Shown one piece after another: positions 128 to 18,932 of a stretch of DNA of 21,483 nt (position 1 is the first letter of the stretch; every line of letters starts with the position of its first letter). A program made the position numbers and the translations under genes. Source of the stretch: a virus; IMG/VR virus record IMGVR_UViG_3300007735_000468, positions 1 to 21,483 of that record. One strand, 5' to 3'. Under the pieces are notes generated by a model that did not search any database, was not told the origin of the DNA, and saw only the letters and a program-made list of their open reading frames with translations.

Positions 128-137
128 CAGTGGGGGT
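128..137 (+). repeat. Dispersed 10-mer CAGTGGGGGT, copy 1
   Basis: Exact copy lying between the stop codon (140-142) of the leftward DUF932-like gene and its terminator. This is the only copy in the left 5 kb and the only one clearly outside coding sequence. Confidence 0.9.
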
Positions 138-139
138 GC

Positions 140-955
140 TCAGTCGACGAGGTGGTCGTTCCAGTCGTTCTCACGGGCGTCATCGATGGCGTGGCAGGTG
201 CCGTCGAGGATCGTGGAGAGGCGGGCGGTCCGCCGTTGGGACTCGGCGGGAGAGTCGCTGGTCTTCTCGACCTCGGTGAAGGCGTTGTAGAGGGACCAGA
301 GGTTGTCACCCTTGAGGCAGGAGTGACCGCCGGGTCCGTCCTCGCGGTTGAACTCGCGCCAGACATGGGGCAGGAGCCGACCGTTGGTGGCGCCCTTGGT
401 GAGGGCGGTCATGCAGAGGTCGGCGGCGTTGCGACGGACCGTGAGCGGGTCGGTGCCGAGGTGGGTGTTCTTCCAGCGGTCGACCTGCTGCTCGGTCGAG
501 TCGAAGTATCCGGGGAGCTCGGCGACCTTGTCCATGCAGATGCGGGGGAAGTCACGGAGGATGAACGCGGTGTGCTTGCGGGAGAACTTGACGATGGCGT
601 CGTCGGCACGGAAGGCGAGGTTGTCGCAGACGAAGACGCGGGTTCCGAGCACGGCCTGTGCGGAGAACTTCTTGCGGTGCGAGTTGCGGAGACCGAGGAC
701 ATGGGCGAAGTCGCCGAGGGTGGAGGTGCGGTTGAGGGTGAGGACGCCGAAGTAGTCCTCCCCGGCCTTGCCCATGAGACCGTGCTTCTGATCGACGACC
801 TCGTACCCGTGGTAGGCGAGGGCCTCGAGCACCATCTCGAGGAAGTAGCGGTGCGAGATGGGGTAGTGCGAGTCGGTGGGGCGGGGCGTGAAGACGTTGG
901 TGATGTCGGCGAGGGAGGCCGAGTAGCCTCCGGCGTGGAGCATGAGGTTGCTCAT
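140..955 (-). CDS. DUF932-like protein, 271 aa
   Basis: This resembles the DUF932 family found in phages and plasmids, whose biochemical role is not established. The recognisable core is at residues 87-115, where LGLRNSHRKKF is followed by GTRVFVCDNLAF; this matches the LGxRNSHxK...GxRVFVCDNLxF pattern I recall for the family. A C-terminal segment near 218-235 (DNLWSLYNAFTEVEK) also looks family-like. The ATG at 955 is chosen because CGGAGAC lies 8 nt upstream and because it overlaps the stop of the preceding gene as ATGA. A longer upstream extension in the same frame has no such support. It is the last gene before a terminator and is larger than its neighbours. Identification is by memory of the motif, without a search. 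Confidence 0.75.
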   Translation of the reverse strand: MSNLMLHAGGYSASLADITNVFTPRPTDSHYPISHRYFLEMVLEALAYHGYEVVDQKHGLMGKAGEDYFGVLTLNRTSTLGDFAHVLGLRNSHRKKFSAQAVLGTRVFVCDNLAFRADDAIVKFSRKHTAFILRDFPRICMDKVAELPGYFDSTEQQVDRWKNTHLGTDPLTVRRNAADLCMTALTKGATNGRLLPHVWREFNREDGPGGHSCLKGDNLWSLYNAFTEVEKTSDSPAESQRRTARLSTILDGTCHAIDDARENDWNDHLVD

Positions 956-1206
956 CGGGTCGTGTCTCCGAAGGGTTGATTGGGGAACCATATCCGCTGA
1001 CCCTTGAAGCAGCCGGAGATGGCGACGGCCTCGACGAGCGCACATGGCCCGGCGAGGAGTATCTCGAAGTCGAAGTTGTCGCCCTTGTCCTCGATGACGG
1101 AGACAAGGTAGAAGTTGTCGGGCGGCATGTCGGGATCACCGAGGGATGCGACCCGCTGTGGGGTGAAGATCACGTAGTCGTTGGGGTGGAATCGTTGGTT
1201 GGGCAC
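952..1206 (-). CDS. Small hypothetical protein, 84 aa, GTG start
   Basis: I do not recognise this protein. The frame is open further upstream, but the upstream part is low-complexity Ser/Thr/Pro, typical of a shadow of the neighbouring gene. From the GTG at 1206 the composition becomes protein-like: VPNQRFHPNDYVIFTP, then hydrophobic and acidic strands suggesting a small beta-rich domain. GGAG lies 4 nt before this GTG. The stop overlaps the ATG of the DUF932-like gene as ATGA, which implies translational coupling. The exact start is the uncertain point. Confidence 0.6.
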   Translation of the reverse strand: MPNQRFHPNDYVIFTPQRVASLGDPDMPPDNFYLVSVIEDKGDNFDFEILLAGPCALVEAVAISGCFKGQRIWFPNQPFGDTTR

Positions 1207-1246
1207 GGCTCTCCATTGTACACAGGGTTGCGAAGTAGTAAAGCCC

Positions 1247-1591
1247 TTACGGGCGACGAATGGCGAGGTGATGTGGTCCCCATTTGTTGGACCACCAGTC
1301 AGGGATGACTCGGACGATCTCGTCGTCGGCGTGGAGGATGTCGGACGAGGAGCGGGAGTTCCGACGGGGCAGGAGCAGGAAGACGGGGGCATAGCCGGTG
1401 GTGATGCCGACCCGACCGCGTCGGATGTGGGTGGTTCCGTCGGAGTAGGTGGTGCGGACCTCGATGCGTGGTCCGTTGTAGTAGGGGCGGAAGGTGGAGG
1501 CCAGGCCTGCCTCCGTGAACTTGTCTCCGTGGATTTCACGGAGCAGGCGAAGCGCACCTGGAAGGGTTAGCCAATCGGTGTTGCGGACCAT
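1247..1591 (-). CDS. Hypothetical protein, 114 aa
   Basis: Unrecognised. It begins MVRNTDWLTLPGALRLLREI, followed by a basic, beta-rich middle (residues 35-75) and a C-terminus containing DWWSNKWGPHH. The start at 1591 has GAGGAC just upstream and overlaps the end of the preceding 69-aa gene by 25 nt, typical of tightly packed phage early genes. No transmembrane segment, metal-binding cluster or known catalytic motif is visible. It sits in a block of seven leftward genes (955 to 2420) with no terminator between them, so it is probably cotranscribed with them. Confidence 0.6.
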   Translation of the reverse strand: MVRNTDWLTLPGALRLLREIHGDKFTEAGLASTFRPYYNGPRIEVRTTYSDGTTHIRRGRVGITTGYAPVFLLLPRRNSRSSSDILHADDEIVRVIPDWWSNKWGPHHLAIRRP

Positions 1592-1776
1592 CCGTCCTCG
1601 CTTTCTGTGTCGATGAACTTGTCGTGGGTTGGTTCGATGTAGTTGCCTTGGTCGTCGTTGCGGGCGATGCAGAACTCGATGGCTTGTTCCTCGGAGTCTG
1701 CCTCGACCTCGAACTCGACACGGTGCAGGAGAGTTGCCCAGCAGGAGACGCGGTAGGTGAGCCGGGGTTGGTTCAT
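1567..1776 (-). CDS. Small hypothetical protein, 69 aa
   Basis: Unrecognised. The sequence has the alternating hydrophobic pattern of a small antiparallel beta/alpha domain: TYRVSCWATLLHRVEFEVEA, then an acidic helix (DSEEQAIEFCIARND). Its ATG overlaps the stop of the upstream 67-aa gene as ATGA, and its 3' end overlaps the next gene by 25 nt. No distinct ribosome binding site is visible, so translation probably depends on coupling to the gene before it. Confidence 0.6.
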   Translation of the reverse strand: MNQPRLTYRVSCWATLLHRVEFEVEADSEEQAIEFCIARNDDQGNYIEPTHDKFIDTESEDGWSATPIG

Positions 1777-1976
1777 GTGGTGGTTCCGGGGTCGGGTTCG
1801 GTGACGTCGTCGAGGTTGCAGGTGGACGGGTGGTCCATCACGAAGTGGAGAGCGGCTTTTACTTTGCGGGTGAGGCGGTCGGCGTACTGATCGGGGTCGA
1901 CGCCCTCGGATTCGCAGTCGTCGTCGTTGAAGTCGATGGTGATGGAGATGTGGGCGCGGTATGTGTTGTTAGTCAT
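1773..1976 (-). CDS. Small acidic hypothetical protein, 67 aa
   Basis: Unrecognised. It starts MTNNTYRAHISITIDFNDDD and is rich in Asp/Glu through residue 30, followed by a helix (YADRLTRKVKAALHFVMD) and an acidic tail. It overlaps the upstream zinc-ribbon-like gene by 8 nt and the downstream gene by 4 nt. Length and acidity would suit a small DNA-mimic or inhibitor protein, but nothing specific supports that. Confidence 0.55.
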   Translation of the reverse strand: MTNNTYRAHISITIDFNDDDCESEGVDPDQYADRLTRKVKAALHFVMDHPSTCNLDDVTEPDPGTTT

Positions 1977-2220
1977 GGGTGATGGCGTCGAAGCAGGAGG
2001 GGCAGATGCGGGAGATCAGGAGTTCCCGCCACTCGGGCTTGAGGTTGGGGAAGGCACGCTGCATGGTCTCGCACCTGCCGAGGGCTTCGAGGCCAGCGAA
2101 CCATTGGGCCTCGTCCATGTCGAACTGGACGGTGCTGTGGCAATCGCAGCAGGTGGTGGAGACGCGGACCTTGTCGATGTTGGTGGGGTGGGGTCGGAAG
2201 GTGCACATTTCGCGGATCAT
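1969..2220 (-). CDS. Zinc-ribbon-like small protein, 83 aa
   Basis: Two CxxC pairs are visible: C24-C-D-C27 (TTCCDCHST) and C73-P-S-C76 (RICPSCFD). They are separated by about 45 residues, including a helical stretch (MDEAQWFAGLEALGRCETMQ). This spacing fits a single zinc-binding site formed by two knuckles, as in zinc-ribbon proteins that bind nucleic acid or proteins. The function is otherwise unknown. The start at 2220 is preceded by CAACCC rather than a clear Shine-Dalgarno; a second Met at residue 5 is an alternative. It lies between two other tiny leftward genes. Confidence 0.6.
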   Translation of the reverse strand: MIREMCTFRPHPTNIDKVRVSTTCCDCHSTVQFDMDEAQWFAGLEALGRCETMQRAFPNLKPEWRELLISRICPSCFDAITHD

Positions 2221-2240
2221 GGGTTGCTCGGGGTTGGGGA

Positions 2241-2420
2241 TCAGGGATTGTCGATGGTCTCTTCGATGGTGGTGTGGACAGCCTCGAACTTGCAGTCGTA
2301 GAGGCTGTCGGCTTGGTCGTCGGTGAGGATGCGGTCGAAGACGAGGATGGTGGTCGAGCCACCGTGCTTGGACTTGAGTTGCTCGAGCATGGAGATGTAT
2401 TCGTCGATGGTGGTGATCAT
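2241..2420 (-). CDS. Small hypothetical protein, 59 aa
   Basis: A complete frame starts MITTIDEYISMLEQLKSKHG and ends EETIDNP before a TGA at 2243-2241. The N-terminal half is a likely amphipathic helix; the rest is acidic, with LVFDRILTDDQADSLYD. It exactly fills the space between the zinc-ribbon-like gene and the terminator of the upstream gene, and its codon use resembles its neighbours. The ATG is only about 20 nt beyond the terminator tail and has no Shine-Dalgarno, so it should be expressed mainly by read-through. Confidence 0.6.
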   Translation of the reverse strand: MITTIDEYISMLEQLKSKHGGSTTILVFDRILTDDQADSLYDCKFEAVHTTIEETIDNP

Positions 2421-2440
2421 GGGTTAGGCGGGGTGGGGGT

Positions 2441-2483
2441 GAAAGAGAAAGCCCCCTGCACCGAACGGCGTGGTGCAGGGGGC
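2441..2483 (-). terminator. Intrinsic terminator after the 166-aa gene
   Basis: A perfect 12-bp stem on the leftward strand (2483-2472 with 2462-2451, arms GCCCCCTGCACC) encloses a 9-nt loop and is followed by TTTCTCTTTC. It lies 24 nt after the stop codon at 2507. Confidence 0.88.
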
Positions 2484-2506
2484 CGGAGACAAATGGCGGG
2501 AGGTTG

Positions 2507-3007
2507 TCAGTCGGCGTCGCCGAGGATCGCGTTGAACAGTTGGGCCTCGACGTGGGAGACGGGCCTGGATCTCTCGCGGATCGGAGGCTTGGGGAGGGTG
2601 GCGTCGCGGTCGGCGTTGTGGTTCTCGACGCTGCCGGGGAGGGAATCGAGGTGGATGAGCTCGAACATGTCGTCGTTGGGGGGGAGCATGCGGATTTCGT
2701 CGAGGAGGATGCGGGTCTTCAGGAAGGAGAGGACTTCATCGTCGGTGAGGTGATCGGTGCCGTTGACGAAGATGTTCCAGCGGGACAGACCGACGATGAT
2801 GTCGGCGAGGGGTGCGGAGTCGGGGTCGATGCCGAGCATTTCGAGCATCTTCCAGTTGGTCGAGATGGGTGCCCGATCTCGGTCGTATCGCACGGCGGCG
2901 TCGATGCGACGCAGACGGTGGTTGGCGTCGAGGATGGAGGCGATCGCCTGTTCGCGATCGGCGATCAGGTTGGCGAAGATGAGGTTGATTTCGTTGTCGG
3001 TCTTCAT
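2507..3007 (-). CDS. Hypothetical protein, 166 aa
   Basis: Unrecognised, probably cytoplasmic. It begins MKTDNEINLIFANLIADREQ, an alpha-helical, charged N-terminus. The middle contains NIFVNGTDHLTDDEVLSFLK followed by an acidic patch, and the C-terminus is more extended and Pro/Arg-rich (TLPKPPIRERSRPVSH). The ATG at 3007 is chosen because CGGAGAC stands 7 nt upstream. The frame is open much further upstream, but that stretch is out-of-frame shadow of the neighbouring genes and contains their terminators and leaders. The gene is bounded by its own terminator downstream and by a terminator plus a roughly 65-nt leader upstream. Confidence 0.75.
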   Translation of the reverse strand: MKTDNEINLIFANLIADREQAIASILDANHRLRRIDAAVRYDRDRAPISTNWKMLEMLGIDPDSAPLADIIVGLSRWNIFVNGTDHLTDDEVLSFLKTRILLDEIRMLPPNDDMFELIHLDSLPGSVENHNADRDATLPKPPIRERSRPVSHVEAQLFNAILGDAD

Positions 3008-3059
3008 GGCTGTTGTCTCCGCATGGTTGGTTGGTTGGGTGATTGCCGCACCATGCAAG

Positions 3060-3070
3060 CGGGTCACCCG
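3060..3070. repeat. Palindrome in leader of the 166-aa gene
   Basis: CGGGTCACCCG is a perfect 11-nt palindrome with a central C. It sits between the upstream terminator and the ribosome binding site. It could be an operator or a leader hairpin; the leader of the 102-aa gene has a comparable dyad. Confidence 0.4.
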
Positions 3071-3073
3071 GGG

Positions 3074-3113
3074 TAAAGAGAAAGCCCCCCGTCTCGGGCA
3101 GGAGACGGAGGGC
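3074..3113 (-). terminator. Intrinsic terminator after the 102-aa gene
   Basis: A 12-bp stem with one mismatch (3113-3102 with 3095-3084) and a 6-nt loop precede the tail CTTTCTCTTTA on the leftward strand. It begins 22 nt after the stop codon of the 102-aa gene. Confidence 0.85.
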
Positions 3114-3135
3114 CAGGGGGAAAAGATGCGGGAGT

Positions 3136-3444
3136 TTAGACGGTGTCGGCGGGGACGCCGTCGTACTGGTCGGGGGTCTCGGTCGATGCGGTCAGCGCGG
3201 TCGGTGCGGTCGGTGCAGCCCGAGGGTTGGGTTGGACGATCTGCGGCCGATCGTCGCCCACCTCCATGAAGGCGTACGGCCGACCGTACTTGTCGGCGAG
3301 GAGCCTCGCGATCTCCGCCGCTTGGAAGTACCAGCGGACCACGGCGACGGGGCTGATGTGCCCCAAACTGTACAGGGCGAGTTCGTCGCCCTGCATCAGT
3401 CGTTCTGGGGGGGTGTAGGTTCCGACGATGAAGCGGGTTTCCAT
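3136..3444 (-). CDS. Hypothetical protein, 102 aa
   Basis: Unrecognised. The N-terminal 70 residues look like a compact domain: METRFIVGTYTPPERL, then YSLGHISPVAVVRWYFQAAE and a helix followed by KYGRPYAFMEVGDD. The last 30 residues are Pro/Ala/Thr-rich and probably disordered. The start at 3444 is set by AGAGAC 5 nt upstream; an in-frame upstream extension lacks a binding site and would run through the leader dyad. The leader (GAGAGACAAACC before ATG) is nearly identical to that of the adjacent Csx16-like gene, suggesting the two units share control. Confidence 0.7.
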   Translation of the reverse strand: METRFIVGTYTPPERLMQGDELALYSLGHISPVAVVRWYFQAAEIARLLADKYGRPYAFMEVGDDRPQIVQPNPRAAPTAPTALTASTETPDQYDGVPADTV

Positions 3445-3477
3445 GGTTTGTCTCTCGGCAGGATTGGTTGGATGACT

Positions 3478-3500
3478 GGTCGTTGACCTGCACAACGACC
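3478..3500 (-). promoter_or_regulatory. Leader inverted repeat of the 102-aa gene
   Basis: A perfect 8-bp inverted repeat (GGTCGTTG at 3478-3485, CAACGACC at 3493-3500) with a 7-nt spacer lies between the upstream terminator and the start codon. It could be a protein operator or a 5' mRNA hairpin. No confident -35/-10 pair fits in this short gap. Confidence 0.45.
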
Positions 3501-3510
3501 CGTCGTGGTG

Positions 3511-3550
3511 AAAGAGAAAGGCCCCGCTCCGCCGTCAAGCGGAGGGGGCC
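3511..3550 (-). terminator. Intrinsic terminator after the Csx16-like gene
   Basis: A long GC stem (arms 3550-3539 and 3532-3520, one bulge) with loop CGTCAA is followed by TTTCTCTTT on the leftward strand. It starts 20 nt after the stop codon. Confidence 0.83.
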
Positions 3551-3569
3551 CATGGAGGAGGCTGGTTGG

Positions 3570-3935
3570 TTAGCGGACGGGTTCCAGTTGGAGCCACATT
3601 CCGCCCTGCATGGCCCCCAAACAGTTGTGTTCAACGATGTCGTTGAACGTGTACACATCTCGAACGACGTAGGTTTCGATCCCCTTGTAGCAGGCCTTGA
3701 CCTGCTCGAGAGTGAGTTCCTTGCCCCGCAGTTCGGCGGGGACGTCGAGGTCGACCGATGTGACGCTCTCTGTGAGAGCGGCGAGGTGGAGGGGAAGTAC
3801 CCCCACCACGCGGCGGTTCCGCACTTGTTCGGCGGTGGCGTGGGGGACCACCTCACCCTCGATTCCGAGTTCCTCACGGAGGAACTCGACGAGCGCTTGG
3901 TGGCGGGTCACGATCAGGATGGGTTGATTGTTCAT
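3570..3935 (-). CDS. Csx16-like protein, candidate anti-CRISPR ring nuclease, 121 aa
   Basis: The protein matches my recollection of the Csx16 (Cas_VVA1548) family. It has TRH at residues 10-12 after a short hydrophobic strand, a PH pair at 31-32, GVLPLHLA at 45-52 and LDVPAELRGKELT at 63-75. The family signature is an N-terminal TRH, then GxLPxxLA and LDLPxxxRGxELs. Its roughly 120 aa is slightly longer than the core because of a C-terminal extension (91-121). Csx16 is normally encoded beside type III CRISPR-Cas genes and has been reported to act as a ring nuclease on cyclic tetra-adenylate. No cas genes are present here, so in a phage the inferred role is counter-defence by signal degradation. 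The ATG at 3935 has AGAGAC 5 nt upstream. Family assignment is moderate; activity is inference. Confidence 0.65.
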   Translation of the reverse strand: MNNQPILIVTRHQALVEFLREELGIEGEVVPHATAEQVRNRRVVGVLPLHLAALTESVTSVDLDVPAELRGKELTLEQVKACYKGIETYVVRDVYTFNDIVEHNCLGAMQGGMWLQLEPVR

Positions 3936-3995
3936 GGTTTGTCTCTGATTGGGGGTTGGATGGGTGGTGGGCGACGTTGCCCGCCACCTTGGAAC

Positions 3996-4032
3996 AAAAA
4001 AAAGGGGAGAGCGGTGGTGAGCCGCTCTCCCC
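3996..4032 (-). terminator. Strong intrinsic terminator after the 120-aa gene
   Basis: A perfect 11-bp stem (GGGGAGAGCGG at 4004-4014, CCGCTCTCCCC at 4022-4032) is followed on the leftward strand by eight T residues. It is the most canonical terminator in the left arm and sits 6 nt past the stop codon. Confidence 0.92.
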
Positions 4033-4038
4033 AGTCGT

Positions 4039-4401
4039 TCAGAAGGAGGGCTTCGCCTTGCCGCCCTTCGTGGTCTCCGAGACCGGACGGATGACCAGTC
4101 GGTCGGGCATGCCCTTCTTGCCCTTGATGACGCGGAACTTGCACTTCGTGCCGCCCACATCAACCACGTCGTCGAGGTTGATGCCGCCCATCTCGGAGTA
4201 GGTCACGGCCTCCTTCTCGCCCTCCGGGGTGAACCGGATCTGCTCAGCAGATCCAGCGAACATCGAGAGGCTGACGATGTAGGCGTCGCCCTTCGTGTTG
4301 AGAGACACATCGACGCAGTCGTACTCGCTCTGCGAGATCGACGGGTTCTCGATGAGGGTGGTCTCGGTCTTCGGCGCGGTCTTCGTGTTCATGCTGGCCA
4401 T
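4039..4401 (-). CDS. Hypothetical protein, 120 aa, first gene of the left arm
   Basis: Unrecognised. After a polar N-terminus (MASMNTKTAPKTETTLIENP) come beta-rich segments (YDCVDVSLNTKGDAYIVSLS, then KCKFRVIKGKKGMPDRLVI) and a basic tail ending KGGKAKPSF. The size and basic tail could suit a small nucleic-acid-binding protein, but no motif proves it. CGGAGAC lies 4 nt before the ATG at 4401 and 13 nt before the second ATG at 4392; the first is preferred. Its position at the head of the leftward arm, with a structured leader and a strong terminator of its own, suggests it is the most heavily or most separately controlled gene of the arm. Confidence 0.75.
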   Translation of the reverse strand: MASMNTKTAPKTETTLIENPSISQSEYDCVDVSLNTKGDAYIVSLSMFAGSAEQIRFTPEGEKEAVTYSEMGGINLDDVVDVGGTKCKFRVIKGKKGMPDRLVIRPVSETTKGGKAKPSF

Positions 4402-4407
4402 ATCGGT

Positions 4408-4867: not shown

Positions 4868-6295
4868 TCAGCCGAGATCGTCGTCATGGTCCTTCTTCAG
4901 CGAAAGACCCCCCAACACGCGCGTTCCTTCAGCACCTTTCCTGATCCTGCTGAGATCCCAGCTACTTTCGGCCACAATCTTGATGAGCAGTTGGTTGTCA
5001 GCCACGTGCATCCGCACGTTATTGGACTTGCACCAGTCCTTCCACTCCCGTCTCACGAGCTCGTTGGCCACGAACCCTGTCTTGTTCTTCACGAACCGGG
5101 CCTCGAGGAAGTAATCGAACGGGTTATTGGCCAGGTGGTACTCCTTGACCACCCGGGTCCCACCATCAGTGGGGGTGAACTTCTCGTCGTCCTTCGCGGC
5201 CTCCAGCTTGATGGCTCCCCTCAGCGCCCAGACCGCGATCCCCGGCAGCTCGCCCTTCAGCACGTCCATGAGGTTGTGCTGTTCCTTGCCCTCGAAGCTC
5301 CTCTCGAACGGCAGCACCAGCATCTTCCCGCTCAGCCCCCGGCCCTTGTTCGGCAGCTGGGGGATCTCGTTCGCCTGGACCCATGGCGCCGCCTGCACGA
5401 CCACGTTCCGGACCTGCCGCTTGTACTTCGCGTTGATGGAGATCGGATCCCTTCCGAGCACGTTCTTCAGGACCCGGACCGCCACCTCTCCCTCCCTCGA
5501 GTCCAGCTCGCTGACCTCCGAGATGCACAGCACCCTCGCGAACTCCAGCCCATCCAGCCCGAAGCTGCCCGCGATCTCATCCAGGCTCGTACCGACGAAC
5601 CCGGTTCCACCCAGCAGCCACCGCATCACCGTGCCGATCGTGCCCTTTCCGGCCCTGATCTTCCCGTGGAACAGCATCCACTTCGCGTACCTCCGGTGGC
5701 TCATCATCGAGTAGCCCATCCACCGCTGCAGCAGCTCCTTCCACACCTCGTCCCCACCGCTCCACTCCTCGAGGCACCGCATCCACCGTGGGCACTCCGC
5801 ATCCGTGTCGAGATCCACGTCGACCACGCACGGATCGAACCACTCCGGCCCTCTCGGGACGCACACCATCGCCCCCGCATCCGCGCTGGCCTTCACGTCC
5901 ACGATCACGTCCCTGAACGCGATCGAGCAGTGGGGGTCGCTCAACCTGTCCCGGTAATCCGGACACAGCCACTGCGGCACATCGGTCCCTGCCACGCGGC
6001 ACAGCGCCTGCATCGCCCGCACGATCCCGGACACCTTGAACTCCGTGGGCCCGTACCGCTCGACCACGAGCCCGTCGTGATCGTCGCTCACGTACAGATC
6101 CTCGGCCCAGCGCCAAACCGCATCCTCGAGCCACTGCAGGTCCCTCTGCACCCACTTGCCGCCGTACCACTCGAACAGCCGTCCCTGCACCTCCCGCAGG
6201 CCCATCCCATCCTCGAAGCAGACCTTCAGCATCGCCCTCGCGACCTTCATCGGTTCGGTTGTCCGCAAAGGGTTTTGTTGTGTACCCAGAGTCAT
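4868..6295 (-). CDS. SF3 helicase (phage D5/P4-type primase-helicase C-terminal part), 475 aa
   Basis: This is a superfamily 3 AAA+ replicative helicase of the poxvirus D5/P4 alpha class, expected to unwind phage DNA at the fork as a hexamer. Walker A is at residues 211-219 (GKIRAGKGT). The hydrophobic strand ending in acidic residues at 255-260 (VLCISE) is Walker B, and QANEIPQL near 308-315 with its Asn is the SF3 sensor. PFERSF at 329-334 follows, as is usual. Residues from about 35 to 205 correspond to the D5-type N-terminal region. At 475 aa it lacks the archaeo-eukaryotic primase domain present in longer relatives, so primase must be supplied elsewhere. GAAAGGA stands about 7 nt upstream of the ATG at 6295. 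It is divergent from the rightward operon by 28 bp. Confidence 0.85.
   Translation of the reverse strand: MTLGTQQNPLRTTEPMKVARAMLKVCFEDGMGLREVQGRLFEWYGGKWVQRDLQWLEDAVWRWAEDLYVSDDHDGLVVERYGPTEFKVSGIVRAMQALCRVAGTDVPQWLCPDYRDRLSDPHCSIAFRDVIVDVKASADAGAMVCVPRGPEWFDPCVVDVDLDTDAECPRWMRCLEEWSGGDEVWKELLQRWMGYSMMSHRRYAKWMLFHGKIRAGKGTIGTVMRWLLGGTGFVGTSLDEIAGSFGLDGLEFARVLCISEVSELDSREGEVAVRVLKNVLGRDPISINAKYKRQVRNVVVQAAPWVQANEIPQLPNKGRGLSGKMLVLPFERSFEGKEQHNLMDVLKGELPGIAVWALRGAIKLEAAKDDEKFTPTDGGTRVVKEYHLANNPFDYFLEARFVKNKTGFVANELVRREWKDWCKSNNVRMHVADNQLLIKIVAESSWDLSRIRKGAEGTRVLGGLSLKKDHDDDLG
5167..5176 (+). repeat. Dispersed 10-mer CAGTGGGGGT, copy 2
   Basis: Exact copy within the helicase gene; read on the gene's strand it encodes part of FTPTDGG (near residue 375). 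Confidence 0.9.
5928..5937 (+). repeat. Dispersed 10-mer CAGTGGGGGT, copy 3
   Basis: Exact copy within the helicase gene; here the same bases encode SDPHCS (near residue 121), a different frame from copy 2. Confidence 0.9.
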
Positions 6296-6323: not shown

Positions 6324-8270
6324 ATGTCCCGACTCGTGAACCCGCTGCAGCTCGACCTGACCGACCCCTCGATGTTTATCGCAGACCTCGAAGCCCACAA
6401 GTATCGGCAGCGCGAGGAAGCGGCGACCAGTGGGGGTCAACCTAGGAAGCCAAAGCCACAGCAACAGGCGCCCGCCGAACCCACGGCTGGCGCTCAACCT
6501 CCGGCTGCTCCTGCTCCGACTGCTGCGACTCCTGCTGCTCCGACTCCGACTTCGACTGCTTTCGACGACTTCAAGGCTCAACGGGAAGCGGCCCTCCTCG
6601 CACACAACGAGGAGCTCAAGGCCCTGGCCGCCCAGGGGGTCCCTTCGGGGGACCTGAGCCGCAAGCGCTCCTACGAACGCTACCAGAACCGCCTCGGCCA
6701 GCTCCGGGCCCTCGAGAACCGCGCCATGCGCGAGGCCCAGCGTCCCGCCAAGCGGGCTGCCCGGATCGCCGCAGACGCCGAGCGCAAGCGACTCCTCGGG
6801 GAACGGCTTGCCGCCAGGGACGCCGCCCGTTCCGCCGAGCGCTCCGCCGCCGGAGACCGCTCGTACACCTCGGTCGAGGACATCCGCACCCGTCGTCCGC
6901 AGTCTACCCAAACTGACCAACCTGTCAACCCCTCCGAACAAGCACTTCGCGAGATGTCCCAGGTTCCGTACCGCACTCCGATCGCGGACGGATCCAACTG
7001 GCTCGACGACGCCATCCGAAAGCAGGCCGACCTGCTCCGGTCCCAGATGAAGCGCACCCCCACTGGTCAGCTCTCCGGGCTCACCGAGCTCTACGCCGAG
7101 CCCGGTAAGGTCGGGCCTCCGGCACCAGCACCCGAGCCTTCGGAACCATCGTTTGTGCCTCCGATGGGCAGGTTTCAATACGCAACCCCCGCGCCAGCTT
7201 CGGCCGCAGCTCCTGCACCGACCATGCCGCCGGAAGAACTCATTGCCTCTCTTCCTCCGGATCAGCAGAAGATGGTTCGCGACCAGCTGGCGCAGCGCAA
7301 GATGCTCGCCGAGATGGAACGCATGAGCACCTCCGGATACGGAGAGATCGCCAACCGTGGACTCGGGGAGAACCTGCTGCGTTCCGCCGACGACACCATC
7401 CGCATGCTCGAGAGCATCGGCGACATCCCCGTGGTCGGCACCGCGCTCCGCACCCTCTTCGGTCCGGCCGGAATCGCCGGAGCCCCGCTTCCGCAGGACC
7501 TTGCCCAGCGCGAGATCGAACGGGCCCGCACTCCGGAGGAACTCTCCGAGGCGCAGGCCCGTCAGTCCCGTGCCGCCATGCAGGGAGCCCTCCTCGACCT
7601 GCTCGGTGGAGCAGCCCAGGGAATACGCCCGCAGCCGAGCACGATTCCGACTCCCGCAGGCCGCCCGGTCATCGACAACCCTCAGGTCGTCGGACAGACC
7701 AAGCCACGTGCGGCTTACACCCCGGAAGGCGCAATCCGGGTGACTCCGGGACAAACTGGTCAAGTTGTAGACATGCCGCAGGTCCCCGGGCGTGGACCGT
7801 ACCAGGGGGGTCTTCCCGAAGCCACTGTCCCGACGTCCGGACCGATGGGCATGAAGGTGTCCGACACGGTGCCTCCGATCAACCAGTCCCGGAGTCCCAT
7901 CGGAACCGTCCGTCGTCCGTATCCCGCAACCGAGACCCTTGCGGACGGACAGGGACTTCTGCCTGGAATCCGGGCATCCGAGGCTCCGCGCGTGTCCACC
8001 CCGGATCAGTCTCCCGTGCTGTCCGAACTCGCGCAGCCTGCGAACCAGCCGCTGCTTCCCGGAATGCCTCGTCCGACCGTGACCCCGAAGGTTCCGGCGC
8101 AGATCCAGCAGGCCCGTGATCTCCAGCGTCGAGTCGCGCAGGGCCGTGCCGCCAACGCGCAGATCGCCCGCCAGCTCGAGGCGAGCCGCGCCGCCGATGC
8201 CGCGCGGTCCAGCCAGGACACGTTCCTCGACGCCCTCAATCAGATGCTGCAGGAGGCGTTGCTGCGATGA
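6324..8270 (+). CDS. Large Pro/Ala-rich hypothetical protein, 648 aa
   Basis: Unrecognised; probably structural or an internal virion protein, judged only from size, composition and position at the head of the late operon. Order along the chain: a short N-terminus; a Pro/Ala/Thr-rich linker (residues 45-80) encoded partly by two imperfect 21-bp tandem units at 6510-6551; a charged Arg/Ala-rich coiled-coil-like region (about 85-195); another Pro/Ala linker (about 265-310); a short hydrophobic segment (about 365-390, IGDIPVVGTALRTLFGPAGI); a Pro/Gly-rich extended part; and a C-terminal Arg/Ala/Gln helix. AGGAGA lies 6 nt before the ATG at 6324. An in-frame upstream extension would run antisense through the helicase gene and is rejected. 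The stop overlaps the next gene as ATGA. Confidence 0.75.
   Translation: MSRLVNPLQLDLTDPSMFIADLEAHKYRQREEAATSGGQPRKPKPQQQAPAEPTAGAQPPAAPAPTAATPAAPTPTSTAFDDFKAQREAALLAHNEELKALAAQGVPSGDLSRKRSYERYQNRLGQLRALENRAMREAQRPAKRAARIAADAERKRLLGERLAARDAARSAERSAAGDRSYTSVEDIRTRRPQSTQTDQPVNPSEQALREMSQVPYRTPIADGSNWLDDAIRKQADLLRSQMKRTPTGQLSGLTELYAEPGKVGPPAPAPEPSEPSFVPPMGRFQYATPAPASAAAPAPTMPPEELIASLPPDQQKMVRDQLAQRKMLAEMERMSTSGYGEIANRGLGENLLRSADDTIRMLESIGDIPVVGTALRTLFGPAGIAGAPLPQDLAQREIERARTPEELSEAQARQSRAAMQGALLDLLGGAAQGIRPQPSTIPTPAGRPVIDNPQVVGQTKPRAAYTPEGAIRVTPGQTGQVVDMPQVPGRGPYQGGLPEATVPTSGPMGMKVSDTVPPINQSRSPIGTVRRPYPATETLADGQGLLPGIRASEAPRVSTPDQSPVLSELAQPANQPLLPGMPRPTVTPKVPAQIQQARDLQRRVAQGRAANAQIARQLEASRAADAARSSQDTFLDALNQMLQEALLR
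6428..6437 (+). repeat. Dispersed 10-mer CAGTGGGGGT, copy 4
   Basis: Exact copy in the Pro/Ala-rich gene, 104 nt into it, encoding TSGG. Confidence 0.9.
7056..7065 (-). repeat. Dispersed 10-mer CAGTGGGGGT, copy 5
   Basis: Exact copy on the minus strand, in the same gene, read as ACCCCCACTG and encoding TPTG. Confidence 0.9.
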
Positions 8271-8710
8271 GCAAGACGCGCCGCAAGGGCATGTCGTTCA
8301 GCGTGGGCGGTGGCCTGCGGTGGGTGCACGAGTCGCGGTTCTGCGACGAGATGCAGCTCACCCCCACTGCCTTCAGGAAGCTGTGCCGGGCGCTCAACGT
8401 GCCGATGCTGCAGATCCACGGCGACTGGCTCGTCAACCTGCACATGTTCCGCATCGGCCTGTGGGCCGCCACGCGCTTCGGTCAGCCGGACTTCCTTGTG
8501 CCCGGGTGCGACAACATCCGCAAGTCCCGCAGGAACCAGACGTCGTCAACTTCGGTTTCCCGGGAGTACATCGAGCAGAATCTTCCGAAACTCATCGAAG
8601 AGGTCAACAAGGCCCGCATCATGGACGGCGTCGAGCTCGAGCAGCGCACCATCGACGAATCCCGCGACGCCGCCCGCCGCATGCTCAACCTCCTCAACCC
8701 AAGGACCTGA
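8267..8710 (+). CDS. Possible HTH DNA-binding protein, 147 aa
   Basis: Residues 20-60 (HESRFCDEMQLTPTAFRKLC followed by ALNVPMLQIHGDWLVN) resemble the helix-turn-helix plus wing of MerR/excisionase-type domains. There, a helix pair is followed by a hydrophobic residue, a short basic or polar turn and a W-L-V strand. The C-terminal half (98-147) is a charged helix suited to oligomerisation. A role in regulation or as a terminase-small-like DNA-binding subunit is possible, but it lies 5 kb from the large terminase and no specific motif decides. The start overlaps the previous stop as ATGA. Confidence 0.65.
   Translation: MSKTRRKGMSFSVGGGLRWVHESRFCDEMQLTPTAFRKLCRALNVPMLQIHGDWLVNLHMFRIGLWAATRFGQPDFLVPGCDNIRKSRRNQTSSTSVSREYIEQNLPKLIEEVNKARIMDGVELEQRTIDESRDAARRMLNLLNPRT
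8360..8369 (-). repeat. Dispersed 10-mer CAGTGGGGGT, copy 6
   Basis: Exact minus-strand copy in the possible HTH gene, encoding LTPTA inside the putative HTH. Confidence 0.9.
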
Positions 8711-10323: not shown

Positions 10324-10724
10324 GCGAGGTCCGCCGCACCAACCCCGAGCGCTGGAAGGCGATCGTCTCCAGGTTCAAGGCGTCCTCCAAGGGCGGCGCC
10401 CCGGGCCAGTGGTCCGCCCGCAAGGCCCAGCTGGCGACCCAGGCCTACCAGTCCAGTGGGGGTGGCTACGTCGGACCCAAGAGCTCCGACAACAGCCTCT
10501 CGAAGTGGACGAGGCAGGACTGGACCACGAAGTCGGGCAAGCCCTCGACACAGGGTCCGAAGGCGACGGGCGAGCGGTACCTGCCGAGGAAGGCGATCGA
10601 GTCGATGTCGTCCGGGGAGTACGCCCGCACGAGCGCGGCCAAGCGGGCCGGACGCGCACAGGGAAGGCAGTTCGTGAAGCAGCCCGAGGACATCGCCCGC
10701 AAGACCAGGAAGTTCAGGAGCTGA
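10320..10724 (+). CDS. DUF5872-like protein, 134 aa, GTG start
   Basis: The order of motifs fits the DUF5872 family as I recall it. It has W near residue 12, then GGAPGQWSARKAQLA at about 25-39, GGGYVG near 47-52, SLSKWTRQDWTTKSGKPS at about 59-76, ERYLPRKA at 85-92, SSGEYARTSAAKR at about 97-109 and a final QFVKQPEDIARK. The family occurs in phages and large DNA viruses and has no known biochemical activity. The GTG at 10320 overlaps the previous TGA. The 134-aa length is about that of the family core, so it appears complete. Search confirmation would be simple because the motifs are strong. Confidence 0.82.
   Translation: MSEVRRTNPERWKAIVSRFKASSKGGAPGQWSARKAQLATQAYQSSGGGYVGPKSSDNSLSKWTRQDWTTKSGKPSTQGPKATGERYLPRKAIESMSSGEYARTSAAKRAGRAQGRQFVKQPEDIARKTRKFRS
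10454..10463 (+). repeat. Dispersed 10-mer CAGTGGGGGT, copy 7
   Basis: Exact copy in the DUF5872-like gene, encoding the family's Gly-rich SSGGG segment. Confidence 0.9.
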
Positions 10725-13332: not shown

Positions 13333-13708
13333 CATCGAGCACCGCCTCTCGGAGATGCGGGAGTTCTATCCGTCCGACGAGCACCAGACGCTCGACGAGG
13401 CCATCGAGACGATCAAGGAGCTGCGGGAGCAGCTGCGCCGAGTCAAGTACGGCGAGCGGCTCAAGGACCACATCTCCGAGCTGAACCCGGACGCGCTGTT
13501 CATCGACAACATGGACGACGCCCTGATCGGCTACGCGGTTCAGTGGGGGTCTCCCGCGCTGGCCGTGTACGACGCCGACCGCATCATCGAGATCCTGTCG
13601 AAGGACATGGGCCTCGAGGACGCCTCCGAGTACTTCAGCTTCAACATCGAGTGCGCCTACCTCGGTCCGAACACTCCGATGATCCTGTACCGTCCGGAGC
13701 CGGACTGA
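13319..13708 (+). CDS. Widespread conserved phage hypothetical protein, 129 aa
   Basis: The C-terminal half (DALFIDNMDDALIGYAVQWG, then LAVYDADRIIEILSKDMG, EYFSFNIECAYLGPNTPMIL) matches a pattern I recall in many tailed phages: DxDxAxIG...VAYxxxKxIxIL...G...EAxEYxxxNIxxAYVGxxTPxF. Its function is unknown. The N-terminal half is a charged coiled-coil-like helix (TLDEAIETIKELREQLRRVK). It directly precedes the large terminase and shares an overlapping TGATG with it. Confidence 0.75.
   Translation: MPQPDIEHRLSEMREFYPSDEHQTLDEAIETIKELREQLRRVKYGERLKDHISELNPDALFIDNMDDALIGYAVQWGSPALAVYDADRIIEILSKDMGLEDASEYFSFNIECAYLGPNTPMILYRPEPD
13541..13550 (+). repeat. Dispersed 10-mer CAGTGGGGGT, copy 8
   Basis: Exact copy in the conserved 129-aa gene, encoding QWGS in a frame different from copies 4 and 7. 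Confidence 0.9.
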
Positions 13709-15669
13709 TGGAACTGAAGCGGATCCCGAACCGCGACCAGGGCAATCCCAACTATCCGCTTCCCCCGGACTACGACGAGCTCACCGACGACGGGCAGCGG
13801 CTGGCCCGGGTGAACGCATGCCGCCAGTGGCTGCTGCCCGAGGAGGATCCGTTGATGCGCGGCGACAACCTCGTCGCGTCGGTGTGGTGGTTCGACCGCT
13901 ACTACCTGGCGCCCGACGAGGACGCCGACTTCAACCCGCTGTTCTACGACGATCAGCCGCTGGAGACGCCGGAGTTCCACTGGGTCCTGCTGCGTCAGTG
14001 GGCCTCGTACCGCATGACGGCCGCCGTGGCTCCGCGTGGTTCCGCGAAGTCCTACCTCAACTGCAAGGACATGCTGCTCCGGCTGATCACGAGGCCTGCA
14101 TATTCGTTCGTATATGCAACCTCGACGCACCCGAACGCCCGCGAGGTCGGAGAGCGCATCAAGCGCCAGTTCATCCACAACGACCGGATCAACGACGACT
14201 TCGGTCCGGAGTTCGACGGACGAATCGTTCCCCGTCGCGGCGAGGGCTCGTTCAGCACGGAGCACATGATCCTCAACAACGGATCGTGGCTCCGGCTCCT
14301 GAGCGCATCGTCGAAGCAGCGCGGTGGCCGTCCCCGTCGGTACCGACTGGACGATCCCGAATACGACCCCAAGTCGTCCACACCGATGTCGGTGCTCCGG
14401 GCCTACATGGCCGAGCTCCTCTTCAAGATCGTGATCCCGATGGTCACTCGTCCGGACACGGGCGTCGACTGGGTCGGCACGTTCGTGTCGAAGCGCCACT
14501 ACCTCTGGCATGCGATGCAGCTGGAGGACACGCCCGAGGGACCCCGCGCGAAGGACCCGCGCTTCAACCGCTGGTCCCGTCTCGTGATCCCGGCTGCGAT
14601 CGAGGAGGACGGAGTCCTGTCGTCGTGCTGGCCGGACATGTGGCCGACCACCAAGGCCGAGCGCCTGGAGAAGGCGGTCACCCGTCCACGGTTCCGGGAG
14701 GCCCTGTCGCTGGAGGAGATCCGCGAGGCCATCGGCGCATCGAACTTCGCCTCCGAGTACCTGGCGTCCCCCGGCGACGGAGAGTCCGCGTTCTTCGGCG
14801 ACCTCGACGATCAGCTGCACGGCTGGCGCTACGAGGAGATCGACGACCGTCTCGACCAGCCGCTCGCGACCACGACCCACATCTGCTGGACCGAGCGCCG
14901 CGACAAGGAGCTGACGACGCAGCGCATGCCGCTGCCGGAGTTCCTGCGCGACTACGCCCGCACGTTCATCACCGCCGACACGTCGCACACGTCCGGCAAG
15001 GACTCGGACTTCAAGGTCTGCTGCCTGATGGCCGTGACCCCCCAGAACGACCTGTTCGTCCTCGACCTCTGGGCCCGGCAGGGCCAGGAGTCCGAGCTGG
15101 TGCGGGCGATCTTCGAGATGGCGGACCGATGGCGCTGCCCGACCGTGCACCCCGAGTCGATCCGCCAGGGCGTCTCGCTCTACAACGCGCTCTCCTCCAT
15201 CGTCTCGACCCGCGCCAACGACATGGCCGGGGTGTCGCATCTTCCGAAGATCGTCAAGCTGAACCCCGGTGTCTCCGAGAAGCAGGACAAGATCGCCGGA
15301 CTCCAGTTCCGGTTCGAGCACGGCAAGATCAAGTTCCCCCTGTGGCGGCGCGACCAGCTTCCCTGGCGTCACCTCTTCGACCAGATCGAGTCGTTCAACC
15401 CGGAGGCCCAGGACGGCGGCCTGGAGAAGGACGACTGCCTCGACGCGGTAGCCATGTCGCAGTTCGTCCTGAAGGGCCGCCTCTCCAAGGCCGGATCCCC
15501 GGCCGCGCAGCGGACGCTGTTCGAGCGCCTGCGGGACGGCGACTTCTTCGAGAACGGCACCCACATCGGCGAGGGCCTCGACATCAACCAGCTCTCCGCC
15601 TCCCAGATCAACGAGATCCTCGATGCACGAACCCCAGATCCACGACCGTCCGGCCGCTCCAAGATCTGA
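13708..15669 (+). CDS. terL: Terminase large subunit, 653 aa
   Basis: This is the packaging motor: an ATPase that translocates DNA into the prohead and a nuclease that cuts concatemers. The ATPase domain has a Walker A-like loop at residues 108-115 (APRGSAKS) and a probable Walker B at about 212-217 (YRLDDPE), preceded by an Arg-rich RGGRPRRYR stretch. The RNase H-like nuclease begins at about residue 426 with FITADTSHTSGKDSDF, and its last acidic motif is EKDDCLDAVA near 574-583. The length of 653 aa is above the typical 450-600 owing to an N-terminal extension of about 90 residues. The ATG at 13708 overlaps the previous stop as TGATG. The portal gene follows after a 305-nt gap. Confidence 0.9.
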   Translation: MELKRIPNRDQGNPNYPLPPDYDELTDDGQRLARVNACRQWLLPEEDPLMRGDNLVASVWWFDRYYLAPDEDADFNPLFYDDQPLETPEFHWVLLRQWASYRMTAAVAPRGSAKSYLNCKDMLLRLITRPAYSFVYATSTHPNAREVGERIKRQFIHNDRINDDFGPEFDGRIVPRRGEGSFSTEHMILNNGSWLRLLSASSKQRGGRPRRYRLDDPEYDPKSSTPMSVLRAYMAELLFKIVIPMVTRPDTGVDWVGTFVSKRHYLWHAMQLEDTPEGPRAKDPRFNRWSRLVIPAAIEEDGVLSSCWPDMWPTTKAERLEKAVTRPRFREALSLEEIREAIGASNFASEYLASPGDGESAFFGDLDDQLHGWRYEEIDDRLDQPLATTTHICWTERRDKELTTQRMPLPEFLRDYARTFITADTSHTSGKDSDFKVCCLMAVTPQNDLFVLDLWARQGQESELVRAIFEMADRWRCPTVHPESIRQGVSLYNALSSIVSTRANDMAGVSHLPKIVKLNPGVSEKQDKIAGLQFRFEHGKIKFPLWRRDQLPWRHLFDQIESFNPEAQDGGLEKDDCLDAVAMSQFVLKGRLSKAGSPAAQRTLFERLRDGDFFENGTHIGEGLDINQLSASQINEILDARTPDPRPSGRSKI

Positions 15670-16126
15670 ATCCCGGATCCCCCTCGGCCTGTTCGAGGCG
15701 ATGGCCCGCTGGTACTTCGGCGGCGCCCCCGAGAAAGAACCCCCACTGGATCGGCGGGCGGATCAGGAGGTCACAATCTCCGATGCTTGGATGGGACTGC
15801 TCTGCCTCTCCTACTTCGGTAACGGCCCCCGGCACCCATCCGTCGGAATCAGTGGGGGTGCACCCTACGCGGCCGATGTACCGACCAGGGAGACGGTGGT
15901 GCAGTATGCTCAGGTGAAGAAGAACGTCCAGATGGTCCCAGGCGGATTCGCCGCACGGAAAGCCCAGGTAAAGCATGGCAAACGACCCGATCAAGCTGAC
16001 GAAGGATCCTCTGGCGCTGGCCCGGATCATCGACAACCACTGCGAGCGGGAGACCAACCGCCTGGCGTACCGCAGGGCGACCTGGCTGGTGGCGCTGTAC
16101 TACCTGATGGGGGCCCGTCAGTTTGA
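15623..16126 (+). CDS. Doubtful hypothetical protein in the terminase-portal gap, up to 167 aa
   Basis: A frame starting at 15623 (alternatively ATG at 15701) covers the whole terminase-portal gap. The middle is protein-like (LGLFEAMARWYFGGAPEKEP, then ISDAWMGLLCLSYFGNG and VVQYAQVKKNVQMVPGGF). The last 50 residues overlap the portal start by 152 nt and look like shadow sequence, rich in Gly/Pro/Asp. No good Shine-Dalgarno is seen. If real, it is a small unknown protein; otherwise the gap is noncoding. It contains two 10-mer copies in opposite orientation. Confidence 0.4.
   Translation: MHEPQIHDRPAAPRSESRIPLGLFEAMARWYFGGAPEKEPPLDRRADQEVTISDAWMGLLCLSYFGNGPRHPSVGISGGAPYAADVPTRETVVQYAQVKKNVQMVPGGFAARKAQVKHGKRPDQADEGSSGAGPDHRQPLRAGDQPPGVPQGDLAGGAVLPDGGPSV
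15739..15748 (-). repeat. Dispersed 10-mer CAGTGGGGGT, copy 9
   Basis: Exact minus-strand copy in the terminase-portal gap, paired with copy 10 in opposite orientation 101 bp further on. Confidence 0.9.
15850..15859 (+). repeat. Dispersed 10-mer CAGTGGGGGT, copy 10
   Basis: Exact copy in the terminase-portal gap. With copy 9 it forms the closest pair in the window. Confidence 0.9.
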
Positions 16127-17996
16127 CGTGTTCGACCCCGAGAGCGGCACGGTCCGCTACTCGTACCTCGACGAGCAGGATCGCCTCGACTTCCAGTCGA
16201 GCGAACTGCTGAGCGCGGTCGACAAGATCTCCGGCCGCCTGAGCAGCCTGGACTTCCGGCCGCTCGTGCAGCGGGTCGGCTCGTCGCTGAGCTCGATCCG
16301 GCAGCGCTCGATCGCGCAGATCATGCTGGACCAGGTCGTGTCCGAGCACCAGCTGAACCGCGTGGTGCCGCAGTTCAACCACATCTTCACGCTCCTCGGC
16401 TCGTGCGGTATCACCGGGCACATGGTGAACCACCCGACCGTCGGCCTGACCGCCGATCTCGAGGTCGTGCACCCGATGGAGCTGTTCCCGTTCCCGAGCC
16501 TGACGCAGGACTACACGAAGCAGCGCGGCCTGCTGCGGCAGCGTGTCGTGTCGATGGACTTCCTGAAGACCGCGTTCGGTCCGAAGGTGGCCCGCAACAA
16601 GGAGCGGATGGAGTTCTACACCATCAAGCCCGGCGAGACCTTCGAGCAGCAGACCGCCAACGAGTACACGCTCGGATCGCAGGTCGTGTACTCCGACCAG
16701 AAGGTCGTGGGTCACGATGCCGAGGCGGACTCGATGCAGGTGGTCCGGGTGCGCGAGCTCTGGCTCATGGGCCCCCGCGACACGGTCAGCCGCTACGTCG
16801 TGACGAGCGGCGAGTACGTGATCCACGACGAGGACCTGGAGGGCCGCGAGGTCTACTGCCCGATCGGGTTCGCCCGCTTCATGGAGAACGGCTCGTTCCA
16901 CGGCGCGGGCGTGTTCGACCTGCTGTTCCCGCTGTGCCGCGAGGCCGAGCGCCTGCAGAAGTCGCTGTTCAACAACATCCGGGACATCGACAAGTACGGC
17001 GTCCTCGTGCTGCCGCACGGATCGTTCAACGCGAACACGATGCTCCGCGACGTCGGCCAGGGACTGCGGGTGTTCCCGTGGGAGCCCGATCCGATCAGCG
17101 AGGGGTTCCGTCCGTTCAACATCACGCCGTACAACTCGGGCGACGTGCCCGGGCGCGTGAGCGCGTTCGCGATCCAGCAGATCGACCGTCTCAACCCGAT
17201 CCGCGACCTGATCGCCGAGAAGGGCCGCGTCGACTCCGCGACCGGACTGCAGTTCCTGGACGAGCAGGTCAACCGCGCGATGAACACCCCCACTGCCGGG
17301 GTGCAGCAGGCGTGGGGCGACTGCTACCGGGCGGTGCTGGCGGGAACCGTCCGCGAGGTGGTCTTCAGCCCGAAGACGTTCACGGTGGACCAGCTGACGC
17401 TGGATCTCGCGGGCGTCGTGGTGGATCCGGAGACGATGGAGGTCAGCTTCGAGCGGAACCCGCTGCCGTCGCTGGCCCAGCTGTCGTTCAAGATCAAGGA
17501 CATCAACCCCCGGAGCAAGGTCGCCCGCAAGCAGGAGGCCCTCCAGCTCCAGCAGCAGTTCCAGCTGGACCAGGACACCTTCATGCTGTTCGCGCTGAAG
17601 GAGGGCCTGGACTTCGCGATGTGGACCGACGAGCACCAGTCGGCCTACGAGTCCGTGGTCCGCAACTGCCTGCTCCTGTTCGGCGACGGAAAGACCCCGG
17701 GCCAGGTCGTGCTCACGCCGCAGACCGCGAAGCCCGAGATGCAGATCCGGGTGCTCAACTCGTTCATGGCGAGCCCGACCATGTCGGTGGCGTCGGCCGA
17801 GGTGCAGGACGCCTTCATCAACTACCACAAGACGCTCATGAGCTTTATGGGCCTCGTGATGCCCAATGCCCTTCCCAATCCTGACGATGTGGCTATGCTG
17901 GGGCGGCTGGACCAGCAGATGGCCCAGATGCAGGGACTTCAGCAGGGGCCCCAAGTTCCGCAGCCCGGCATGATGCCCCAGATGCAAGGGATGTAA
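15975..17996 (+). CDS. Portal protein, 673 aa
   Basis: The portal forms the ring at the unique capsid vertex through which DNA enters and leaves and to which the tail attaches. It is identified from position between large terminase and scaffold/capsid, size and features typical of large podovirus-like portals. These include a helical N-terminus with WLVALYYLMGARQFDVFDPE, a beta-rich clip/wing region (about 140-310), a long stem-like segment (ERLQKSLFNNIRDIDKYGVL near 325), and GRVDSATGLQFLDEQVNRAM around 417-436. It ends with a helical crown and a Gln/Met/Pro-rich tail. AGG lies about 6 nt before the ATG. The stop is directly followed by the scaffold ATG. Confidence 0.82.
   Translation: MANDPIKLTKDPLALARIIDNHCERETNRLAYRRATWLVALYYLMGARQFDVFDPESGTVRYSYLDEQDRLDFQSSELLSAVDKISGRLSSLDFRPLVQRVGSSLSSIRQRSIAQIMLDQVVSEHQLNRVVPQFNHIFTLLGSCGITGHMVNHPTVGLTADLEVVHPMELFPFPSLTQDYTKQRGLLRQRVVSMDFLKTAFGPKVARNKERMEFYTIKPGETFEQQTANEYTLGSQVVYSDQKVVGHDAEADSMQVVRVRELWLMGPRDTVSRYVVTSGEYVIHDEDLEGREVYCPIGFARFMENGSFHGAGVFDLLFPLCREAERLQKSLFNNIRDIDKYGVLVLPHGSFNANTMLRDVGQGLRVFPWEPDPISEGFRPFNITPYNSGDVPGRVSAFAIQQIDRLNPIRDLIAEKGRVDSATGLQFLDEQVNRAMNTPTAGVQQAWGDCYRAVLAGTVREVVFSPKTFTVDQLTLDLAGVVVDPETMEVSFERNPLPSLAQLSFKIKDINPRSKVARKQEALQLQQQFQLDQDTFMLFALKEGLDFAMWTDEHQSAYESVVRNCLLLFGDGKTPGQVVLTPQTAKPEMQIRVLNSFMASPTMSVASAEVQDAFINYHKTLMSFMGLVMPNALPNPDDVAMLGRLDQQMAQMQGLQQGPQVPQPGMMPQMQGM
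17286..17295 (-). repeat. Dispersed 10-mer CAGTGGGGGT, copy 11
   Basis: Exact minus-strand copy in the portal gene, encoding NTPTA. Confidence 0.9.
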
Positions 17997-18932
17997 ATGG
18001 ACATCGACCCGAACATGATGATCACGCTGGACGACGGCACCGAGGTGTCGATCGCCGACCTGATCCAGAGCCGCAAGGACCTGAAGGACGCCATCGAGAT
18101 CAACGACACCCTGCAGAAGGATCTCGAGCAGGTGGGGACCCTGTTCCGGGCGGACGTCTCGTTCGACCAGCGCGAGGAGGCCACGCGCAACATCCTCGCC
18201 GACCTCGGCTACGAGGACGACCAGATCGACCAGTACCTGGGGGCGGTGCGCTCCCGGATGGAACAGCCGGATCCCGAGCCGGAACCGGAGCAGGAAGACG
18301 ACGAGGTCGAGGAGATCGACCTTCCGGACATCGACGAGGACCCCGACCTGGAGGACGACACCGATTCCAGTGGGGGTGACGAAAGGAAAGCCATGAGCAA
18401 CGAAGACGTTCTGCGCCAGGAACTCGAGGCCCAGCGGGCCGAACTCCACCGTATGCGGGTCCGCGAGCTCCGCGAGAACCTCAACAGCCAGCTCGACCGG
18501 GTGCTGGAAAATAACAAGGATTTCCAGAAGCTCATCGAGAGCGCCCGCTCTACACGGGGCGACGAAGGTGTGCAGCAGGCGAGGAACACCCTGCGCTCCC
18601 AGCTGGAGCAGCGGGCCCTCGAGCGCATGCAGGCCCGTCGTTCTGCGGCGGGAACCTTCGAGGACGCATGGATGTCCGAGGAGGTCGAGAAGGCGGTTGA
18701 CCCCGTCGTAGGTACTTTCCGGTCGGTAATCGGCGACATCGACAGGCTCGGTCGTTCGTCGGAAACGGTCACCGGACTCGATGCGGAGGAGATTCTCCGC
18801 AGCAAGCCAGTTCCCGAACCCGAATACAGGCCCGGAGCCACCATCAGCGACATCGAGTCGCAGGTCAAGAGCTTCGCGAGCGACACGATCAAGCGGGCGC
18901 TGGCATCGTCTCCAGGTGAGTCCGCAATCTGA
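17997..18932 (+). CDS. Scaffold protein, 311 aa
   Basis: It is expected to guide prohead assembly inside the capsid shell and then leave. Evidence: position between portal and major capsid protein, high acidity (EDDEVEEIDLPDIDEDPDLE around 100-120), long helical charged segments (about 133-215, EDVLRQELEAQRAELHRMRV) and an ordinary scaffold length. The start immediately follows the portal TAA. An in-frame ATG at 18393 (residue 133) has AAGGAAAG just upstream and would yield a 179-residue C-terminal form; the 10-mer copy 12 sits just before it. No protease motif is visible. Confidence 0.8.
   Translation: MDIDPNMMITLDDGTEVSIADLIQSRKDLKDAIEINDTLQKDLEQVGTLFRADVSFDQREEATRNILADLGYEDDQIDQYLGAVRSRMEQPDPEPEPEQEDDEVEEIDLPDIDEDPDLEDDTDSSGGDERKAMSNEDVLRQELEAQRAELHRMRVRELRENLNSQLDRVLENNKDFQKLIESARSTRGDEGVQQARNTLRSQLEQRALERMQARRSAAGTFEDAWMSEEVEKAVDPVVGTFRSVIGDIDRLGRSSETVTGLDAEEILRSKPVPEPEYRPGATISDIESQVKSFASDTIKRALASSPGESAI
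18368..18377 (+). repeat. Dispersed 10-mer CAGTGGGGGT, copy 12
   Basis: Exact copy in the scaffold gene, encoding SSGGD, about 15 nt before the internal start candidate at 18393. It is the last copy; none occur in the final 3.1 kb. Confidence 0.9.

Follow-up and report, generated by a model that had tools for sequence, protein, structure and literature searches.

The 21,483-nucleotide stretch of viral DNA analysed here (the window; IMG/VR record IMGVR_UViG_3300007735_000468) is a fragment of a tailed-phage genome of ~50–55 kb and carries twelve exact copies of the asymmetric, G-rich 10-mer CAGTGGGGGT. The word is one instance of a wider pattern. In a large set of uncultivated tailed phages with genomes of ~46–56 kb (the window, L009–L120 and L187–L345), each lineage holds its own polar word, which is swapped in concert between lineages, and these words are maintained by selection acting on the DNA itself. 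Very probably they are a polar DNA signal under selection, recognised by a reader that the phages themselves encode. The open-access literature searched contained no account of a system like this one.

A preliminary description made from the letters of the window had placed eight copies on the plus strand and four on the minus strand, and all twelve were recovered where it had put them, against 0.08 expected:

128..137, plus strand: word copy CAGTGGGGGT, just beyond the end of the DUF932 gene; kept in the relative G002
5167..5176, plus strand: word copy within the DUF5906 helicase gene; kept by most relatives, and replaced by CAGTGGGGGG in L012, G006 and G008
5928..5937, plus strand: word copy within the DUF5906 helicase gene; presence varies by relative
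6428..6437, plus strand: word copy without an alignable relative in the ortholog comparison
7056..7065, minus strand: word copy, from exact match and ortholog comparison
8360..8369, minus strand: word copy within the gene for a 147-aa protein
10454..10463, plus strand: word copy, from exact match and ortholog comparison
13541..13550, plus strand: word copy retained by nearly all clade A relatives
15739..15748, minus strand: word copy between the TerL and portal genes, forming a close minus–plus pair with the copy at 15850
15850..15859, plus strand: word copy between the TerL and portal genes
17286..17295, minus strand: word copy within the portal gene; the NTPTA residues are constant while their codons alternate between word and non-word
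18368..18377, plus strand: word copy within the gene that follows the portal gene

The copies lie on average ~2 kb apart, and the best shuffle of the window held a single copy. CAGTGGGGGT is the commonest 10-mer of the window, where the runner-up independent 10-mer reaches five copies and single-mismatch copies of CAGTGGGGGT are absent. Codon-synonymous shuffling, the control proposed in the preliminary description, gave a mean of 3.3 copies and a maximum of 5 against the 12 in the real sequence, figures that include three copies outside called genes that were never shuffled; any other 10-mer in this test reached at most six copies. The copies had also been said to lie in different frames. Several frames are indeed used, but not evenly: seven of the nine copies within called genes share one register, which in the open reading frames reads AGT GGG GGT (SGG) in sense and ACC CCC ACT (TPT) in antisense. 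A similar register skew is seen across the whole clade.

Comparison of orthologous positions points to the DNA rather than the protein as the object of selection. With all residues conserved, 188 of 256 ortholog comparisons (73%) preserve the exact word 9-mer, whereas frame-matched random 9-mers are preserved in 37%. Chance, codon usage and protein effects are thus ruled out by the expectation, the codon shuffles and the matched 9-mer retention, bearing out the earlier dismissal of protein conservation; shuffles, ortholog alignments and retention together support the proposal of a signal at the DNA level. Across orthologues a given site mostly holds either the complete word or plainly none, with free flanks around it. 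To this extent the flanks are unconserved, as had been claimed, but in relatives the site extends to approximately RWY-CAGTGGGGGT-K. Where an orthologue lacks the word, the alignment is almost always gap-free, which rules out insertion of a mobile piece as the source of the word and agrees with the earlier view that the copies are not transposons.

Searching IMG/VR for sequences related to the portal, capsid, helicase and polymerase yielded more than 270 loci. The same word is found in close relatives, in many instances at orthologous sites, and the wider family uses about ten lineage-specific words, mostly built around a GTGGGG core: besides CAGTGGGGGT these include CAGTGGGGGG, GAGTGGGGG, CGTGGGGGGAC, AGTGGGGGGA, TGGGGGGAG, TAGTGGGGAA, AGCGGGGAA, GGYTGGTGGGG and GCTGCGGTG. 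A word class could be assigned for 247 of 271 loci and records, several of which share a contig and so are not all independent. Every relative analysed at full length over-represents G-rich 8–10-mers, and near-complete genomes (~46–56 kb) hold 13–48 exact copies of an asymmetric, G-rich word of ~10–13 bp. In class A, 238 sites lie within genes and 91 outside. The change between words is concerted: in L012 all ten copies have G as their last base where the window word has T, and this holds too for the positions that L012 shares with the window. The word classes are nearly monophyletic on each core gene tree, and a search of these trees for a reader found that all core genes match the classes about equally, with none standing out.

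The genes of the window provide the landmarks for direction and two of the candidate readers:

4868..6250, minus strand: DUF5906 helicase with a predicted C-terminal winged helix; candidate reader
8267..8710, plus strand: conserved 147-aa protein upstream of TerL, in a small-terminase-like position; candidate reader
13708..15669, plus strand: TerL, landmark for the late direction
15975..17996, plus strand: portal, landmark and search query
18950..20611, plus strand: major capsid protein, landmark and search query

The late genes (portal, capsid, TerL) occupy one strand and the early genes the other. The early genes include those for a family A polymerase, a PD-(D/E)XK exonuclease, a Sak4-like protein, the DUF5906 helicase, a uracil-DNA-glycosylase-like protein and a DUF932 protein. 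Portal and capsid proteins had no matches among 50,697 catalogued phages, matches of TerL and polymerase to catalogued phages are remote, and Pfam and PHROGs scans put names on few genes.

Although copies occur on both strands, the words are polar. In well-sampled classes the G-rich strand of the word lies on the late-gene strand in 65–90% of sites, with counts at unique sites of 236:118 in class A, 87:46 in B, 202:58 in C, 47:15 in C2, 252:130 in F and 18:2 in G; in small classes and in the G-ending subclass the polarity is not significant. The same bias appears in the early (65:26) and late (98:53) regions of class A, indicating that polarity tracks the molecule and not transcription. This bears directly on the suggestion that the words are stoperators, repressor sites that halt transcription. 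The numbers are alike: each genome of the cluster A mycobacteriophages carries 20–30 asymmetric sites of 13–14 bp, with variants between subclusters (PMC6550527, PMC9283540). Stoperators, however, are oriented with transcription, whereas the present words keep one genome direction and mostly sit inside genes rather than in short intergenic spaces; an integrase or immunity repressor was not seen among the genes scanned, which were not all of the genes. We therefore reject stoperators as the identity of the words and regard repressor sites of this type as highly improbable.

After correction for the coding effect, the majority strand still shows excess G at fourfold degenerate sites in 19 of 21 genomes, suggesting, from skew, that it is the leading strand. 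Majority-strand sites are spaced ~1.6–3.2 kb apart in most lineages, and in most class A genomes and several others, though not in all, they are distributed more evenly than uniform random positions. Minority-strand sites in classes A and B tend to fall a short way before a majority-strand site, a pairing that is not seen in classes C and E. One inverted pair, ACCCCCACTG followed by CAGTGGGGGT with starts 18 bp apart (G010, 32767–32785), is conserved across class A, with orthologues in G001, G002, G003, G004 and G009.

Dispersed asymmetric words of 9–10 bp are also known as localized single-strand interruption sites in the lytic phages tf, T5 and phiKMV-like phages, where a phage nickase would cut one strand within the word. 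In tf a 9-bp word occurs at 14 sites in 46 kb, within genes, with lineage variants and conserved positions (PMC3517423); another motif-linked nick system comprises 60 relatives (PMC11780129), and an ERCC4-type nuclease gene is present in classes A and C of our phages. The known nick sites are nonetheless strictly confined to one strand (14 to 0 in tf), while the present words fall on both strands at a ratio of ~2:1 or more and opposite-strand copies can be as little as 18 bp apart. As one-strand nick sites the words thus do not fit, and we consider site-specific nicking an improbable explanation.

A G-rich, asymmetric word dispersed in coding DNA and found mostly on the strand taken from skew to be leading recalls Chi, the site recognised by RecBCD or AddAB, and the preliminary description had offered the host's Chi among its options. 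Phages can over-represent Chi (PMC3784561), and the class F word contains GCTGGTGG, the Chi octamer. In class F the octamer is nearly always followed by GG, so that the conserved unit is longer than Chi. The phage words are also lineage-specific and far more strongly enriched, ~100-fold or more, than Chi in lambdoid phages, where over-representation has a median of ~2-fold at 0.2 sites per kb (PMC3784561). The host side could be examined in one Myxococcales metagenome bin, the only phage-bearing bin available, which includes a related phage as three contigs (48.6 kb in total). Within this 3.6 Mb bin, 29 of the 36 copies of GTGGGGGGA lie on the phage contigs and only seven in the remaining ~3.55 Mb, so the word is not enriched in the bacterial contigs; the host tie here comes from binning alone. 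Should the bin be the host, the word would not be one of the host's own. That the word of each lineage is the Chi recognised by RecBCD or AddAB in its host is accordingly disfavoured, and we judge it quite unlikely.

We then considered which phage protein might read the word. A reader should be encoded in every class, so candidates of partial distribution count against themselves. Genes for the PD-(D/E)XK exonuclease, a helix-turn-helix (HTH) protein, the Sak4-like protein and an SSB-like protein form one operon in all classes for which this region is available. The HTH protein of this operon, likewise present wherever the region is seen, has a predicted three-helix fold, for which structure searches returned weak HTH matches only. 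The DUF5906 helicase is present in the window and wherever sought in complete genomes; its C-terminal winged helix is predicted, from a model in which the helicase core is poor, and matches RFX DNA-binding domains and the SaPI5 primase-helicase.

This helicase gives rise to a different reading, in which its winged helix binds the word as a dispersed counterpart of P4-alpha or SaPI iterons, or in which the word is a start site for the lagging strand. P4 alpha binds origin repeats through a winged helix (PMC4234260), the winged helix of the phage helicase varies by word class, and GTG is recognised by the NrS-1 PrimPol and by ORF904 (PMC8718748). The majority strand would moreover be the lagging-strand template, with sites every 1.6–3.2 kb. 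Known iterons, by contrast, cluster at the origin, unlike these scattered words, and a primase domain was not detected among the scanned genes, which do not cover every gene. Nor do phages that share only this helicase carry a dispersed word: three such catalogued phages show local tandem repeats instead, which excludes the DUF5906 helicase alone as the cause. These repeats are short and in register, and lie in the DUF2815 or SSB-like gene region (L365, 17774–18035; L366, 17729–17948; L367, 17612–17675). Replication sites of this kind are doubtful as an explanation, though nearly as likely as the Chi-like role described below.

The words might also be packaging, condensation or partition marks for a DNA-binding protein associated with the virion or terminase. 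Polarity over the whole genome is compatible with packaging, and the 147-aa gene upstream of TerL would supply a candidate; this protein, however, was not detected in class C2 genomes that bear the word, and marks of this sort seem a rather remote prospect. Among the options originally listed, the best reading is a Chi-like, replication or packaging mark recognised by the phage's own machinery.

Our tentative preference is for a Chi-like mechanism operating in the phage's own replication and recombination, favoured because of the polarity, the spacing, the strand and the universal exonuclease–HTH–Sak4–SSB operon. Under this proposal the word would be the recognition site of a single phage-encoded factor acting on DNA in replication and recombination. 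On reaching the word from one side, a complex that processes DNA ends or carries out recombination would halt, change its activity or be loaded there. This could cap the loss from a broken or terminase-cut end, and the word may mark the point at which recombination-dependent replication restarts. Candidate parts are the PD-(D/E)XK exonuclease, the HTH protein, the Sak4-like recombinase, the SSB-like protein, the family A polymerase and the DUF5906 helicase.

Several observations weigh against this proposal. About one third of the sites are oriented the opposite way, and the host test relies on a single metagenome bin. Mosaic breakpoints between close relatives lie farther from words than random points do (median 703 versus 512 bp), in a test that is weak for distant effects. 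Each candidate reader also has its difficulty. The operon HTH protein is only ~27–29% identical between phages that share a word, classes C, C2 and F lack the tandem-HTH protein found in other classes, and the 147-aa protein has the gap in class C2 noted above. The winged helix of the helicase is practically identical in the window phage, whose word ends in T, and in L191, whose word ends in G, which counts equally against the helicase-bound replication sites.

Some further features of these genomes were observed alongside the words. A 14-mer, AAAGAGAAAGCCCC, occurs in the window as two exact copies and one with a single mismatch (2442–2455, 3075–3088 and 3511–3524), in early intergenic gaps ~20–70 bp upstream of minus-strand gene starts, and is a possible early promoter or leader element. 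In L135, a class A early gene (1398–1934, minus strand) encodes a phage sigma factor-like protein with a weak region 4 match, and another gene (3150–4048, minus strand) encodes a protein with Mtd_N, the N-terminal domain of the major tropism determinant (E 3.7e-10).

Among bacterial words, KOPS, DUS/USS and HIP1 are likewise dispersed and over-represented, and some are polar; they are chromosomal and read by host proteins. The phage words may represent an undescribed class of genome signal, a possibility we put forward with reserve, in which lytic-phage lineages each evolve a polar word together with a co-evolving phage-encoded reader that governs replication, recombination or the protection of ends across the whole genome. 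Few dispersed polar words are known, and the ones now understood (Chi, KOPS, stoperators) revealed whole mechanisms, while what phage nick words are for is still a puzzle. The hundreds of sites here, in about ten word classes and with concerted switches between close relatives, form a natural experiment on the joint change of a DNA reader and all of its sites, and a ready test set for identifying the reader.

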